Source: a virus. Taken from it: a DNA stretch of 20,977 bases. The stretch lies in IMG/VR virus record IMGVR_UViG_3300034198_002634, positions 1 through 20,977 of that record; one strand, given 5' to 3'. The notes beneath the pieces were generated by a model that was not told the origin of the DNA, did no database searches, and saw nothing but the letters and a program-made list of their open reading frames with translations. Position numbers and translations under genes: made by a program. This document shows positions 8,638-20,549 of this stretch, piece after piece (position 1 is the stretch's first letter; the number at the start of each line of letters is the position of its first letter).

Positions 8638-9261
8638 TTACGAATTGTTGATATTCTGCCAGTTCGGGCTTTGGCTGGCATCTATGCCTGCCCAGTTAAC
8701 ATTTTGCGAATTGATGATCTTAACCCAGCCCCCAACGCCAAAAGCTTCTGCAAGGGCGGCGTTCTCCGCAATGACTGCCTGAAATGCGGCAACGACAGTA
8801 GCAGCATCTGCGCTGCTCAAATTTTCCAGCGCCGTAAAGTTGAAACCCTGAGCCGCCGTGTTTGCATCATCGGCTGAAAAGTTTTCAATGACGGTCTCAA
8901 AGAACAATTGGATTATGGTTGCCGCATCTTGCGCCGTCACCCCCTCAGTAATGGATTGAGCAAACTGCGCGGCAATGCTTTGGGCATCGGCCAAAGTGCT
9001 ACCCTCGGAAATCGACTGCGCAAATTGCGCTGTAATCGCCTGGGCATCAGCCAAGCTAATGGCCTCCGTGACGCTGCCCAAGAACGCCCCCGCAAAAGAA
9101 GCTGCATCCCCCATCGTGACGGGTTCTGTTCGACTCATGTCGTAAGCCGAAACCTGCGTGTTTGAATCACCTACCTGAATGCCCTCTGTGATAGACAGGA
9201 AAATGCCTGTGCTTGCCAGCGATGCAAATGGCGTTTGGGCAAAACTTGAGGTGCCGAACAT
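8638..9261 (-). CDS. Tail protein built from 20-residue tandem repeats
   Basis: The product has 207 residues. After a short lead (MFGTSSFAQTPFASLASTG) residues 23-162 divide exactly into seven 20-residue units of the form S-I-T-E-G-x-x-x-x-D-A followed by an Ala/Gln/Phe helix such as AQFAQ; half of an eighth unit follows. The C-terminus (GWVKIINSQNVNW, then WQNINNS) has the Trp/Asn/Gln ending seen in other phage fibre-associated proteins. The E-x5-D-A pattern with fixed period suggests a repetitive fibrous shaft. I know similar E/D-periodic proteins from aquatic phages but not their function. The gene lies between fibre genes; AAGGTG at the end of the preceding gene is its likely ribosome binding site. 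Confidence 0.8.
   Translation of the reverse strand: MFGTSSFAQTPFASLASTGIFLSITEGIQVGDSNTQVSAYDMSRTEPVTMGDAASFAGAFLGSVTEAISLADAQAITAQFAQSISEGSTLADAQSIAAQFAQSITEGVTAQDAATIIQLFFETVIENFSADDANTAAQGFNFTALENLSSADAATVVAAFQAVIAENAALAEAFGVGGWVKIINSQNVNWAGIDASQSPNWQNINNS
8776..9195 (-). repeat. Seven 60-bp coding repeats (20-residue units)
   Basis: Units begin at residues 23, 43, 63, 83, 103, 123 and 143 of the encoded protein. Units three and four are closest (both end AQFAQ); the outer units have diverged. No length changes are seen between units. Confidence 0.8.
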
Positions 9262-9263
9262 GA

Positions 9264-9503
9264 TTACACCTTAGCAGGGTCTATTACTGCCGTCGAGGTT
9301 TCCCGGTCAATCCGGAAAATCCCGTCACAGGCGATGTTCCAATCCTGGCCCGTGGCATCCATCTCGCTGACTGAAGGCACGTTGATCTTGAAGTGTTTAA
9401 ACAGGTACTCGCGGCCATCCACGAAGACGCGCCAAACGTGCTCAGGCGTGCCCCTGCCGGGCTGCCCACGGCTCTTGTTGAAGCGGATGGAAACGTGGCT
9501 CAT
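9264..9503 (-). CDS. Small phage protein of unknown function
   Basis: This 79-residue protein reads MSHVSIRFNKSRGQPGRGTP, then HVWRVFVDGREYLFKHFKIN and a C-terminal DWNIACDGIFRIDRETSTAV. It appears to be a compact beta-rich protein without membrane segments. The start forms ATGA with the stop of the oxygenase gene and the stop is followed by the repeat-protein gene. Conserved placement between fibre-block genes suggests a structural or chaperone role, but I cannot assign one. Confidence 0.7.
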   Translation of the reverse strand: MSHVSIRFNKSRGQPGRGTPEHVWRVFVDGREYLFKHFKINVPSVSEMDATGQDWNIACDGIFRIDRETSTAVIDPAKV

Positions 9504-10135
9504 ACGATGATCGGGCCGCTCGGCTGCTCCACCGGGCGCACGGAGACATTGAAGTGGATGAACTTCATGGGGTCAGACGACGAGTTTCGCGTGAACGAGT
9601 GCGGCAGCCATGCGTTGGAGAACACCATCAGCCCAGGCTCTGGGGTGACATGCAGCATGTTGTTGGCATCCCGTACCTGGGTCTGCTCCTTGATCGGAAG
9701 GCTGGCCTGCACCTTGCCCGGCCTGGGGTCGTGCAACTCGATCACGGAGCCACCCTGCGGCGCGGTCAGGAAGTAAAAGCCAGAAATGACCACCCCATAC
9801 GGGTGAACATGCTGCTCCATGCCGGAATACTTGAAGTGCTCCTGAACCCAGAACTCGCTGACGTAGGCCATGAACTGATCCATCTGGTAGCCCTGGTTGT
9901 CCAGAATCGCCCAGGCAGACTCCGCGATGAACCGCTCCAGCGGCATGGTGCGCTCGTCACCAATCATGGAGTTCGACATCACGAACGGGTATGTCTCGTT
10001 CATGGGGCGGGCGGCCTTGGCCTTGGCCAAAGCCTCATCAGAGGCGCCCAGCGTGGCGTCAAGGAACTCCGGCTTCTTGATGGTGTAGACCATCGAAGCG
10101 AAGAGCGGGGACGGCTCCAGAATGGCTTTGCTCAT
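9500..10135 (-). CDS. 2-oxoglutarate/Fe(II)-dependent oxygenase-like protein
   Basis: I chose ATG at 10135 (211 residues, MSKAILEPSPLFASMVYTIK) because it forms ATGA with the upstream stop; the frame also has an ATG at 10156. The C-terminal half matches the double-stranded beta-helix of the prolyl-4-hydroxylase-like 2OG-FeII_Oxy_5 family: H109-V-H111 in MEQHVHPYG, then SGFYFLTAPQGGSVIELHDP, TPEPGLMVFSNAWLPHSF with H179, and MKFIHFNVS, where K191 or nearby may hold 2-oxoglutarate. Such enzymes couple oxidation of 2-oxoglutarate to hydroxylation of a protein or small molecule. Homologues are frequent in aquatic phages. Here it sits among tail fibre genes, so hydroxylation of a virion or host surface protein is possible (inference). 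The exact second iron ligand is not clear to me. Confidence 0.82.
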   Translation of the reverse strand: MSKAILEPSPLFASMVYTIKKPEFLDATLGASDEALAKAKAARPMNETYPFVMSNSMIGDERTMPLERFIAESAWAILDNQGYQMDQFMAYVSEFWVQEHFKYSGMEQHVHPYGVVISGFYFLTAPQGGSVIELHDPRPGKVQASLPIKEQTQVRDANNMLHVTPEPGLMVFSNAWLPHSFTRNSSSDPMKFIHFNVSVRPVEQPSGPIIV

Positions 10136-10482
10136 GCTTGCACGCAAGTGTTCCACGGGGCGGGCTTGATGACCGGGCGCGGGGGCGGATTGGCCTTCAA
10201 CTCAAGGGCGCGGGTCAGGCCAAGCTCGTAGTGCCGCTTGTCCTCCGGACGCATTGACGCCTTGACCCACTCGATCACCTGATCTTGAGTCAGGTTCTCA
10301 AAGGGGATGAAAGTCCCATCCTCGCTGGGCTTGAGTTGCGCCGCGCCGCCGATGGAGTGGGTGTGCGTGCCGTCCGTGGCAGTGATGGTGTACCGAACCT
10401 GCACAACAGTGTCGGCGCGGCCAGCGTGGGTGATGGTGGCCACGCCATCAGCGGGGACTGACCAAGTGAAAGTTGGGGTCAT
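10132..10482 (-). CDS. DUF7936-like small phage protein
   Basis: The product has 116 residues. It opens MTPTFTWSVPADGVATITHA, continues with strands VVQVRYTITATDG, then FIPFENLTQDQVIEWVKASM followed by a helical charged stretch and a Pro-rich tail. The FTWS start and the LTQDQVIxWV motif are typical of a small phage family (DUF7936 in my recollection) common in aquatic and proteobacterial phages and lacking a known role. A strong AAGGAG precedes the ATG. The stop overlaps the oxygenase start (ATGA), so both are translated from the same stretch of message and could cooperate. Confidence 0.78.
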   Translation of the reverse strand: MTPTFTWSVPADGVATITHAGRADTVVQVRYTITATDGTHTHSIGGAAQLKPSEDGTFIPFENLTQDQVIEWVKASMRPEDKRHYELGLTRALELKANPPPRPVIKPAPWNTCVQA

Positions 10483-10500: not shown

Positions 10501-12042
10501 TTACCCGTAAGTGATTTCACGAGTGCATGGACAATAGTAAAGCGCAAAACAAGTTGTGGCGTTACGAATTGGCCCGATATGAGTTTGGCATAAACTGACG
10601 GAAGAAGTACCGAGTCCGATAGCGACCGAATTTGAAACAGAGGATGAATAGACTCCAATAGCTACTGAACAGCTACCTTGGCAGAACGAGCCAGCACTAT
10701 AACCAATCGCAACTGCGTAATTGCCTTGACAATATTGGCCCGCTTGAGCGCCAACTGCGACCGCGTACTCGCCTTGACAACCGTAGCCAGAAGCAAGCCC
10801 AACTGCAACCGATTGTCTACCCTGACTGGAATACCCAGCATTCTGACCGATTGCAACAGACCTGCCTTCACCAAAAGATAAAGTAAACCCCTGGCAGATA
10901 GCCCCTGCATTAAATCCGATTGCAACTGATGAATTTACTTGGTTTGTGGCACCCGCTCCAGTGCCAATCGCAACGCCTCCGGCCCCTTGATTGCATAGTC
11001 CAGCATTGAAACCAAGCGCGGTACGGGAATTACAAATGCAAGTCGTTCCAAACACCCTGCCCGGAACTGTCGGGGTGGCGCAGCCAATAGAAGTATCACT
11101 AGTTACTTCACGAGTACAAGCGTTGTAATACAACGTCTGAAGTCCACTGCTGGGAGTGGAACGGATTGGGCCAATGAAAGTTCTATCATTGTTAGAACCG
11201 AAAGTATTCGTACCAATTGCGATTGTATTTATTGACGTAATGCAGCACGCGCCGACACTTGCACTTTTACCTATTGCAATTGAGCCACACGAATTAGCGC
11301 CAGCATCATGACCAATTGAAACCGCATTAGTATAAGCATATGCAGAAAACCCAACAGCTACCGCTGAATTTGCTGCACCTGCTGTATAGCCAACTGCAAC
11401 GCCTGCATTTCCAGCGCCAGCGTTATAGCCCAACGCTGCTTTTCCATTTGGACAACAAACTGTTGTTTCCCCATAAACAATACCCGGAGAACCAGGTGTG
11501 GCTGGGCATACGCTAGCAGCGGAAATAGTGATTGACCCCGCGCCGTTGGTAATCGTCACCCCGCAGCCAGCAGTCAGCGTGGCTTTGACAAGCGTATTGC
11601 CCGTGGTGTTGCCGATCAGTATCTGCCCGTTGGTATAGGTTGTTTGCCCAGTGCCGCCATACGCGACCCCAATGGTTGACCCCTGCCATGTGCCGCTTGA
11701 CACCGTGCCCAAGGCCGACACATTGCCGCTGCCATCCAGATTGACTGAGCGGCCAGACGGGTACGTCACAAAAACGCTCACCGCACCAGAGAACGTGACA
11801 GCAAGGTTGGAGTTGCTGGAGGCGTAGACCGTGGTGCGGGTCAGCGTTGGACCCGTGGTCGAGTACGTGCCAAGACCCACCTCCCAATTGCCGGAGGCGT
11901 CGGTGGATGAATAGTACGTGGTGTTACCGTTTCCAATTACGGCAAACGACTGAAAGCCTGCCACAGCCCCCGTGAGCGTGAAGCTCACAGTGGTATTCGC
12001 CGTGCCCGTCTGCTGGACACGATTTGCAAGGACCAGAGGCAT
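10501..12042 (-). CDS. Tail fibre with duplicated Cys-rich VAIG beta-roll modules
   Basis: The product has 513 residues. The N-terminal 1-110 (MPLVLANRVQQTGTANTTVS, then GNWEVGLGTYSTTGPTLTRT) is a common virion-attachment section. Residues 124-175 contain YGGTGQTTYTNGQILIGNTT, a widespread phage fibre motif. Then come two modules (about 187-314 and 328-512), each with ALG(Y/F)NAG, a run of VA(I/V)G repeats like the head repeats of YadA-type adhesins, an IGPIR segment and a closing LYYxxCTRE(V/I)T. The VAIG units near 395-474 are mostly 16 residues long. All 21 Cys residues lie after residue 159, three in register at 422, 438 and 454. This should be a trimeric or beta-roll fibre binding the host (inference). 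DNA composition shifts to AT-richer where the modules begin. Confidence 0.87.
   Translation of the reverse strand: MPLVLANRVQQTGTANTTVSFTLTGAVAGFQSFAVIGNGNTTYYSSTDASGNWEVGLGTYSTTGPTLTRTTVYASSNSNLAVTFSGAVSVFVTYPSGRSVNLDGSGNVSALGTVSSGTWQGSTIGVAYGGTGQTTYTNGQILIGNTTGNTLVKATLTAGCGVTITNGAGSITISAASVCPATPGSPGIVYGETTVCCPNGKAALGYNAGAGNAGVAVGYTAGAANSAVAVGFSAYAYTNAVSIGHDAGANSCGSIAIGKSASVGACCITSINTIAIGTNTFGSNNDRTFIGPIRSTPSSGLQTLYYNACTREVTSDTSIGCATPTVPGRVFGTTCICNSRTALGFNAGLCNQGAGGVAIGTGAGATNQVNSSVAIGFNAGAICQGFTLSFGEGRSVAIGQNAGYSSQGRQSVAVGLASGYGCQGEYAVAVGAQAGQYCQGNYAVAIGYSAGSFCQGSCSVAIGVYSSSVSNSVAIGLGTSSVSLCQTHIGPIRNATTCFALYYCPCTREITYG
10507..11061 (-). repeat. VAIG beta-roll module, copy B
   Basis: Encodes residues 328-512. 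It carries the GRVFG start, the ALGFNAG unit, at least seven VA(I/V)G turns, HIGPIR and LYYCPCTREIT. The 16-residue turns start at residues 395, 411, 427, 443 and 459. It parallels copy A but has more turns. Confidence 0.8.
11101..11484 (-). repeat. VAIG beta-roll module, copy A
   Basis: Encodes residues 187-314: GIVYG, ALGYNAG, several VAVG/SIG/IAIG turns, FIGPIR and LYYNACTREVT. The same order of landmarks as copy B argues for an internal duplication of the whole module. Confidence 0.78.
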
Positions 12043-13092: not shown

Positions 13093-13656
13093 TCAGATCA
13101 CCTCGAAATTGTTGGATTTGGCGCGGTTCATTTTGGCAGGGATCACTTGCAGATTTAGGGGCACATGTAACCCCGACACAAGTTTACCTTGTAGGGGCAG
13201 CACATGATCCACCTGAAACGAAATGCCAAACAACTTAGTTCTCAGCTCGGCCAGCTCATAGGCTTGTTCCATCAACCAATGGTCGTCTTCTGTAAGCCAC
13301 GCGGGGGTGCGCATCAACTCAGCAGCGTGCCGTTTGGCTTTTATTTTGGCGTAAATATGCAAGTGTGTTTTTTGGTACGCCCGCTTCTTTGCGTTCACAA
13401 CATCAACATTTTTCGCATGATATTTTCTGGTGGCGACCTTGATTTTTTCAGCAAAACGGCTGTACTGCGTCTTGTTGTGCTGCTGCACTTTGGCGGGGTT
13501 TTGTATCCGCCATGCCTTCAACCGCTCTGCTCGACACACAAGGCACTCCCCGTTAGTAGCGCGACGAGGAGCAACATGCCCGTGCTGGCACGCCTTCCCA
13601 GTGAAGTACTGGGCGTCTCCTTTTGCAATCGCTGCTTTACGGGCTGCCTCCATCAT
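13093..13656 (-). CDS. HNH homing endonuclease-like protein
   Basis: The product has 187 residues. An N-terminal Cys/His cluster (C23, H25, H27, C38, C41 in CQHGHVAPRRATNGECLVC) looks like a small zinc-binding element. A long basic helical region follows (about 45-115; many Lys, Arg, Tyr), then an HNH-type core FQVDHVLPLQGKLVSGLHV with D150-H151, H164, N168 in LNLQVIP, and MNRAKSNNF. Such enzymes nick or cut DNA with a divalent metal and often spread between phage genomes. It lies between two virion genes with no functional tie to it, starts in an ATGATG overlap with the adaptor gene stop and ends flush with the next gene, and its DNA is AT-richer than the neighbours. These points fit a free-standing mobile endonuclease (inference). 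Confidence 0.85.
   Translation of the reverse strand: MMEAARKAAIAKGDAQYFTGKACQHGHVAPRRATNGECLVCRAERLKAWRIQNPAKVQQHNKTQYSRFAEKIKVATRKYHAKNVDVVNAKKRAYQKTHLHIYAKIKAKRHAAELMRTPAWLTEDDHWLMEQAYELAELRTKLFGISFQVDHVLPLQGKLVSGLHVPLNLQVIPAKMNRAKSNNFEVI
13101..13104 (-). promoter_or_regulatory. Ribosome binding site inside the HNH gene end
   Basis: GAGG eight bases before GTG 13092; it overlaps the final Glu-Val codons of the upstream endonuclease gene. Confidence 0.55.
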
Positions 13657-20132: not shown

Positions 20133-20549
20133 TCAGCTTATCGCCTCGTGTTTGTTGCGGTACGCATCCCAGTTTGGATGATCTGCTGAAGCATACAAAT
20201 ATTGCGCTGCAAACTCAAGCAGTGTTGGATCATCCCTGAAATGCCCAAGGCCCCTATTGCAGTGATTGCACAACATGCCGCGAATCTTACCGCTATGGTG
20301 ATCGTGATCTACCACCAATGGTTCATTAGAGCCGCAAATAACGCATTCATGCGTTGTGGCTTTTAACTCTGCGAGCGCCGCGTCAGAAATAACATCACGA
20401 AATTTTCCGCGACTGTTTGCGTTTCTGTACGCGCTGCGGCATGACCGGCACCAACTGTCCAACCCATTGCGTTTTTTATTGTGCAGCGGGAAAAACTCAG
20501 CGGTTCCGGGCTTGCCGGTTTTGCAACGAGTACAGTTCAGCAATTCCAT
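20133..20549 (-). CDS. Endonuclease VII-type HNH nuclease
   Basis: This 138-residue protein begins MELLNCTRCKTGKPGTAEFF with Cys pairs C6-x-x-C9 and C34-x-x-C37 (one possible zinc site), then the T4 endonuclease VII signature: C69-x-x-C72, VVDHDHHSGKIRGMLC with D81-H82-D83-H84, and C94-x-x-C97-N98 followed by RGLGHFRDD. The second four Cys residues would bind the structural zinc, and the DHDH/N residues the catalytic metal. The T4 enzyme resolves branched DNA before packaging; many phage members are stand-alone endonucleases. The gene overlaps the preceding gene by 13 bases and its DNA is AT-richer than its surroundings. Either a DNA-debranching late enzyme or a mobile nuclease. Confidence 0.87.
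   Translation of the reverse strand: MELLNCTRCKTGKPGTAEFFPLHNKKRNGLDSWCRSCRSAYRNANSRGKFRDVISDAALAELKATTHECVICGSNEPLVVDHDHHSGKIRGMLCNHCNRGLGHFRDDPTLLEFAAQYLYASADHPNWDAYRNKHEAIS

Follow-up and report, generated by a model that had tools for sequence, protein, structure and literature searches.

Which bacteria a phage attacks is decided by the tips of its fibres, and these tips usually contain hardly any cysteine. Cysteines that recur at a fixed place along a solenoid are known from the InlJ ladder and from the beetle antifreeze beta-helix, whose disulfide-forming cysteines lie at the period of the repeat. InlJ (cited in PMC3196904) is similar to the fibre described here in having Cys at the solenoid repeat period, but unlike InlJ and the antifreeze helix the present class carries Cys in only about a third of its turns and gives no pairing signal. 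The HxH iron-binding tips of T4 gp37 and Alteromonas phage R22Y embody a comparable idea, that of repeated ligand residues stacked along a fibre (PMC11705849). They differ in that the present fibre has Cys instead of His (only two His in 513 residues and no HxH), apparently on an outer edge and not on the axis. The YadA-like heads of bacterial adhesins (PF05658) share with it the SVAIG strand and stacked parallel turns; the turn of about 14 residues is replaced here by one of 16 with an almost invariant Gln at position 12, and the protein is a phage fibre with exposed Cys and not an adhesin. Solved structures of such rolls show V and I directed toward the threefold axis, a rise of 4.8 Å per turn and additional residues accommodated between positions 14 and 1 (PMC9543794). 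The only cultured phages matching the repeat part of the window's tip and of that of the contig G001 are the Tenacibaculum phages pT24, PTm1 and PTm5, whose repeat proteins in contrast contain almost no Cys (2 of 1315 residues in PTm1, 4 of the 1205 residues read in pT24). A search of open-licence papers turned up no account of similarly Cys-rich phage fibres.

The window is the whole 20,977-nucleotide stretch of viral DNA that was analysed. It encodes a tail fibre of 513 residues whose parts are as follows.

10501..12042 (-), tail fibre gene, 513 aa with 21 Cys, from the ORF translation and PHROG 31660
11569..12042 (-), conserved N-terminal part, residues 1-158, without Cys, GC3 0.70 like its neighbours, common to many phages at 44-90% identity
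11089..11514 (-), module A, residues 177-318, with head VYGETT, short VAVG/AIG turns and cap IGPIRS...LYYNACTREVT, 43% identical to module B
10504..11088 (-), module B, residues 319-513, with head VFGTT, 16-residue VAIG turns and C-terminal cap IGPIRN...LYYCPCTREITYG, from the module alignment
10621..10860 (-), VAIG turns of the predicted beta-roll, residues 395-474, from AlphaFold2 and Foldseek
10777..10779 (-), codon of Cys 422, turn position 11, a bridge residue in the model
10729..10731 (-), codon of Cys 438, turn position 11, a bridge residue in the model
10681..10683 (-), codon of Cys 454, turn position 11, adjoining bridge residue 61 of the model

The identity as a phage tail fibre is supported by a profile match of residues 103-177 to PHROG 31660 'tail fiber protein' (E 2e-23), by the shared N-terminus and by synteny among the tail genes. 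These tail genes find their nearest annotated relatives, roughly 25-45% identical, in Pelagibacter, Roseobacter and related phages. HTVC023P/HTVC027P, CRP-901/902 and Venkman-like phages have related tail adaptor genes and several (HTVC023P, Venkman, CRP-6) also the fibre N-terminus, which is linked to the fibres of cultured phages through the contig G001; no match to the window's tip was found among these cultured phages. The signal peptide and C-terminal membrane anchor of trimeric autotransporter adhesins are absent from the fibre, which begins with a phage fibre N-terminus and finishes ...CTREITYG.

A recount of the ORF bears out the original prediction that all 21 Cys follow residue 159: they stand at residues 160, 179, 196, 197, 252, 266, 267, 309, 321, 335, 337, 350, 383, 422, 438, 454, 458, 485, 498, 504 and 506. 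The 21 Cys of residues 160-513 compare with 2.3 expected from the other proteins of the window (P = 6e-14), whose Cys content is an ordinary 0.66% (39/5944). The view that such a content is unusual for a fibre is thus upheld, and is strengthened by the Cys-poor tips and VAIG rolls of relatives. Two tandem modules ending in LYYxxCTRE(V/I)T had also been proposed, and both are present, aligning at 43% identity with the ends LYYNACTREVT and LYYCPCTREIT; the G001 fibre has four, and module B is 51% identical to a G001/L091 module. Most of the Cys lie in or next to the modules as had been suggested, the exceptions being Cys 160 and 179 in the upstream linker.

The first 100-135 residues of the fibre recur in many phage contigs from metagenomes, which have the tail adaptor gene in common as well, and behind these residues the remainder of the fibre differs, with S74-chaperone-like, collagen-like, glycine-rich or other ends as named from reading. 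At the tip GC3 declines to 0.36, against 0.54-0.83 in the eight neighbouring genes that were checked. Because different ends follow the same N-terminus and GC3 drops at the junction, the tip is most likely an exchanged module. Comparable relatives with this N-terminus contain 0-0.7% Cys after residue 180, the sole exception by percentage being L067, a 217-aa frame with two Cys and only 37 residues past that point.

A Cys-rich homologous tip in matching local gene order is found in three contigs. The G001 fibre has 895 aa and 43 Cys, and that of L283 has 547 aa and 20 Cys with an N-terminal part 64% identical to that of the window; in both contigs the synteny extends to other tail genes. The third, in G002, has 331 aa, one module and 10 Cys behind an unrelated N-terminus. 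Single-sequence patterns yielded no close relatives of the tip in viral contigs. In bacterial genomes the Cys pattern was found in 18 stretches, where the translations showing it have it once or twice outside any VAIG repeats, and these occurrences look like chance.

The turns of module B start with [SA]VA(I/V)G at residues 395, 411, 427, 443 and 459, with a sixth turn at 472. AlphaFold2 was run on residues 395-513 as a single chain with an alignment of 25 natural rows, and gave a mean pLDDT of 80 and about 90 over the turns; a 7-row alignment gave a poor model (pLDDT 56). The strands of the model fall at V-A-I, and DSSP bridges at model residues 12, 28, 44-45 and 61 correspond to residues 406, 422, 438-439 and 455. 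Foldseek finds YadA-like heads, namely 3s6l_A (probability 0.99, TMq 0.61, rmsd 2.2 over 100 columns) and 1p9h (probability 0.97), albeit at E-values of 0.09-0.3. Among viral models (BFVD) the best matches are 'glycoprotein repeat' proteins of chloroviruses and the Qinghai Lake virophage (E about 1e-6), which differ in not being tail fibres of the window phage's type. A profile search of the tip matches 1P9H (E 2e-4). Pfam gives no match for the whole 513-aa protein since the repeats are short, and fragments do match YadA_head (PF05658; E 1.4e-4, 22.6 bits, below the curated cut-off of 25). The predicted beta-roll of the original prediction is therefore supported by model confidence over the turns and by the Foldseek matches. 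The model supports a YadA-head-like left-handed parallel roll, the handedness being taken from the Foldseek match.

The three Cys codons listed above had been singled out as a ladder with the exact 16-residue period of the turns, and the coordinates confirm this: Cys 422, 438 and 454 are 16 apart and each stands five residues ahead of the next [AS]VA(I/V)G. The full series at this position reads C383, S406, C422, C438, C454, where residues 383 and 406 are separated by an irregular insertion. In the single-chain model Cys 422 and 438 lie inside a parallel bridge ladder and Cys 454 adjoins one, in agreement with the suggested stacking on one edge, and the model supports placing these positions on the second, outer edge of the roll. 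When turn positions 10-11 are mapped onto the scheme of the solved rolls they would occupy the outer, solvent-facing corner. The further suggestion that the stack locks the trimer is unlikely, because by this mapping the Cys corner should face solvent and it is V and I that face the threefold axis (PMC9543794).

Whether such a tip is exceptional was judged against a sample of homologous viral VAIG rolls drawn by the turn pattern irrespective of Cys position. Among these 81 proteins the turns are free of Cys in 65 and contain less than 1% in 74; two proteins fall at 1-3% and five reach 3% or more. The class of Cys-rich rolls is defined here by a Cys content of at least 3% across the turns and by the restriction of this Cys to exposed positions; with 4.9% over the turns and about 10% at exposed positions the window fibre belongs to it. 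A second, independent sample, picked out by the C-terminal cap motif, comprised 22 stretches, of which L091 and L210 alone are Cys-rich and the rest have 0-0.3%. Exposed positions hold 12.6% Cys in the Cys-rich group and 0.03% in the Cys-poor group; since the groups were split by Cys content, it is the gap between the two modes that counts as independent evidence. Taken together, a distinct bimodal class of Cys-rich viral VAIG rolls, along with the fibre anatomy, is proposed with high confidence. Cys-rich rolls follow a Mtd_N domain in L084, L085/L092, L087/L090, L088, L093, L094 and others, where PF18454 was confirmed for L084 and L092 and the unscanned ones were grouped by reading their N-termini; other N-termini precede the rolls of L086, L278 and L280. 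L280, a 2075-aa frame on the minus strand with 71 turns and 76 Cys, is the longest Cys-rich roll seen.

In the turns of the Cys-rich rolls, positions 10 and 11 are each Cys in 32% of cases, position 14 in 14% and positions 6, 13 and 15 in 5-7%; the core positions 1-4, 7, 8, 12 and 16 never are. Where these rolls carry Cys, the Cys-poor rolls have Thr, Asn or Ser. The relatives had been expected to have Ser, Thr or Asn at the ladder position, which is true of most of them (position 11 of the Cys-poor set is 25% S, 22% T, 22% N and 0% C) but not of the Cys-rich subclass with its 32% C. The Ser of position 16 stays in the Cys-rich rolls (35%) and is not exchanged. From the aligned turns it is apparent that replacement by Cys is restricted to non-core positions, where it takes the place of Thr, Ser and Asn on the exposed edge. 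Corner loops of the class contain 13.3% Cys compared with 0.4%, with clusters such as CDCCGCGSC. Dense clusters of this sort (CDCCGCGSC, CCCCSC) are seen in the Mtd_N-type fibres L084, L087, L093 and L094, where the exposed edge is enriched in His and Tyr.

One account of the pattern ascribes no function to it: mutational or codon bias, or a targeted mutagenesis system, made Cys codons that are tolerated. Exposed codons of the Mtd_N-type group are indeed rich in YRY triplets. Against this, no Cys codons are found at the core positions and Ser16 is retained, and the Cys-rich genes span GC3 values of 0.11-0.46 at a similar Cys density of 8-17% of exposed positions, so that codon bias is not the explanation. 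Under neutral drift one would expect Cys content to vary continuously and not to fall into two modes, and the Cys content of the other window proteins is ordinary. The close pair L085/L092 shows 54 synonymous and 26 nonsynonymous codon differences, with purifying selection visible. A search of 16 records, several of them fragments, found no reverse transcriptase (RVT_1), leaving the tips without the mark of a diversity-generating retroelement target. An origin without function is thus highly improbable.

The cysteines could also form a disulfide zipper, in which the position-11 Cys of successive turns, about 4.8 Å apart, pair up by oxidation once the cell has lysed and thereby lock each roll. 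The stacked bridge positions of the model, three consecutive Cys-bearing turns in the window fibre and the rise per turn in solved rolls (PMC9543794) all speak for this, as does the P22 tailspike: it folds through a disulfide-bearing protrimer and shows that disulfides can serve transiently in the assembly of phage spike trimers (PMC4705272). Across 230 turns of the Cys-rich class, however, Cys at the same position of adjacent turns occurs at the shuffled rate (19 against 20.0 for position 10 and 25 against 22.4 for position 11; z of -0.3 and +0.8), and Cys lacking a Cys neighbour are no rarer than expected (59 observed, 51 expected). Several pairwise statistics on Cys that reached z near 3 were disregarded, since over 100 combinations had been tested. 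The Cys positions also change freely among homologues: only 33% of the aligned exposed Cys places are matched by Cys, which is close to how often Cys occurs at positions 10 and 11, and in a global alignment of the window tip with that of L283 (42% identity) 8 of 29 Cys columns are common. L085 and L092 differ in 3 of their 22 Cys (Y/C, C/Y, A/C). The zipper is accordingly rather unlikely, and the 16-residue ladder is not supported as a designed feature, with its adjacent pairs at the shuffled rate and its single Cys unconserved. Three in-register Cys in one module readily arise from one-third occupancy. As site conservation is weak in spite of purifying selection, the comparisons indicate that the density of Cys on the exposed edge is maintained and the individual sites move.

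A metal-binding edge, where dense thiols and in one subgroup His bind Zn, Cu or Fe for stability or for recognition of a metal-uptake receptor, is also unlikely, if slightly easier to credit than the zipper. CC and CxCC clusters occur in corner loops, His is enriched 6-fold together with Cys, mainly in the Mtd_N-type group and L086, and iron in a fibre tip is known for T4 gp37 (PMC11705849). Yet vicinal CC at positions 10-11 is at chance (25 against 24.6 expected), there is no fixed ligand set, and His is not enriched in the window's own group, for which a metal site deduced from His was rejected.

Cysteine is a rare surface residue in air-exposed proteins. This weighs against a third possibility, that Cys, along with Tyr, provides contacts as a small and polarizable residue on an edge that binds the receptor and changes rapidly, with redox or metal chemistry unneeded. 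That Cys exchanges with Tyr, Ser and Asn (L085/L092 differ by Y/C twice), that Tyr is itself up 1.8-fold and that the tip modules are swapped would suit such a surface, but the rise from 0.03 to 12.6% Cys goes far beyond that of Tyr or any other residue and makes this possibility doubtful.

Overall the best explanation, with a probability of roughly 0.4, is a host-recognition tip with a thiol-rich exposed edge. In this explanation the C-terminal two thirds of a podovirus-like fibre would be an exchangeable tip of two tandem YadA-head-like left-handed parallel beta-rolls. The conserved V-A-I, A-G and Gln positions would build the core and the trimer axis, and the predicted exposed edge (turn positions 10, 11, 13 and 14 and the corner loops) is densely set with Cys. 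The functional step is put forward more tentatively, its chances being nearer one in three than one in two. The fibre would fold in reduced form in the host cytoplasm, and after release the crowded outer-edge thiols may react opportunistically, forming disulfides between near neighbours or holding soft metal ions. The outcome would be a stiffer tip or a thiol- or metal-reactive adhesive edge toward the host surface. Fixed disulfide pairs or metal sites are disfavoured because pairing and conservation are absent, and the corner-loop clusters such as CDCCGCGSC favour thiol chemistry in the Mtd_N-type group. No thioredoxin gene was found in 15 records with Cys-rich tips and no ALR-type oxidase was matched in the Cys-rich records, many of these records being fragments and the control search for the oxidase being silent too.

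The significance of the class lies in a small, sharply set-off group of tips whose turns contain about 4-9% Cys, located on an exposed edge and in at least five fibre N-terminal contexts, which would imply a surface chemistry of thiols, disulfides or metals. Such chemistry was not found described for phage recognition in open-licence papers. It is conceivable, though short of an even chance, that a thiol-coated beta-roll tip is common to, or arose repeatedly in, aquatic phages whose fibres are of several unrelated types; such a tip would be an undescribed adhesive or metal/redox-active surface in which the density of outer-edge Cys and not specific disulfides is selected. Very Cys-rich beta-rolls beside nearly Cys-free homologues also form a natural set for comparison.

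Two genes downstream of the fibre recur at the same place in G001, G002 and L283.

10132..10482 (-), DUF7936 gene, PF25590 (E 1.5e-17)
9500..10156 (-), 2OG-Fe(II) oxygenase gene, PF13759 (E 1.8e-11)

The oxygenase gene stays beside the fibre gene in all syntenic relatives, even in G002 with its changed N-terminus, and Fe(II)-dependent oxygenases are listed among the host-recognition island genes of marine phages (PMC3909814). On the minus strand between the tail genes, 13093-13656 holds a 187-aa ORF that reads as a Cys/His endonuclease (CxxC-type, HNH-like) and has no Pfam match; it appears to be an insertion because the homologous flanking genes are directly adjacent in G001. The gene at 20133-20549 (-) encodes a Recombination endonuclease VII family protein (PF02945, E 3e-17). 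A 207-aa protein encoded at 8638-9261 (-) contains the imperfect repeats AQSITEGVTAQDA / AQSISEGSTLADAQS, its weak matches to DNA-binding proteins are probably due to chance, and L283 encodes a longer homologue.
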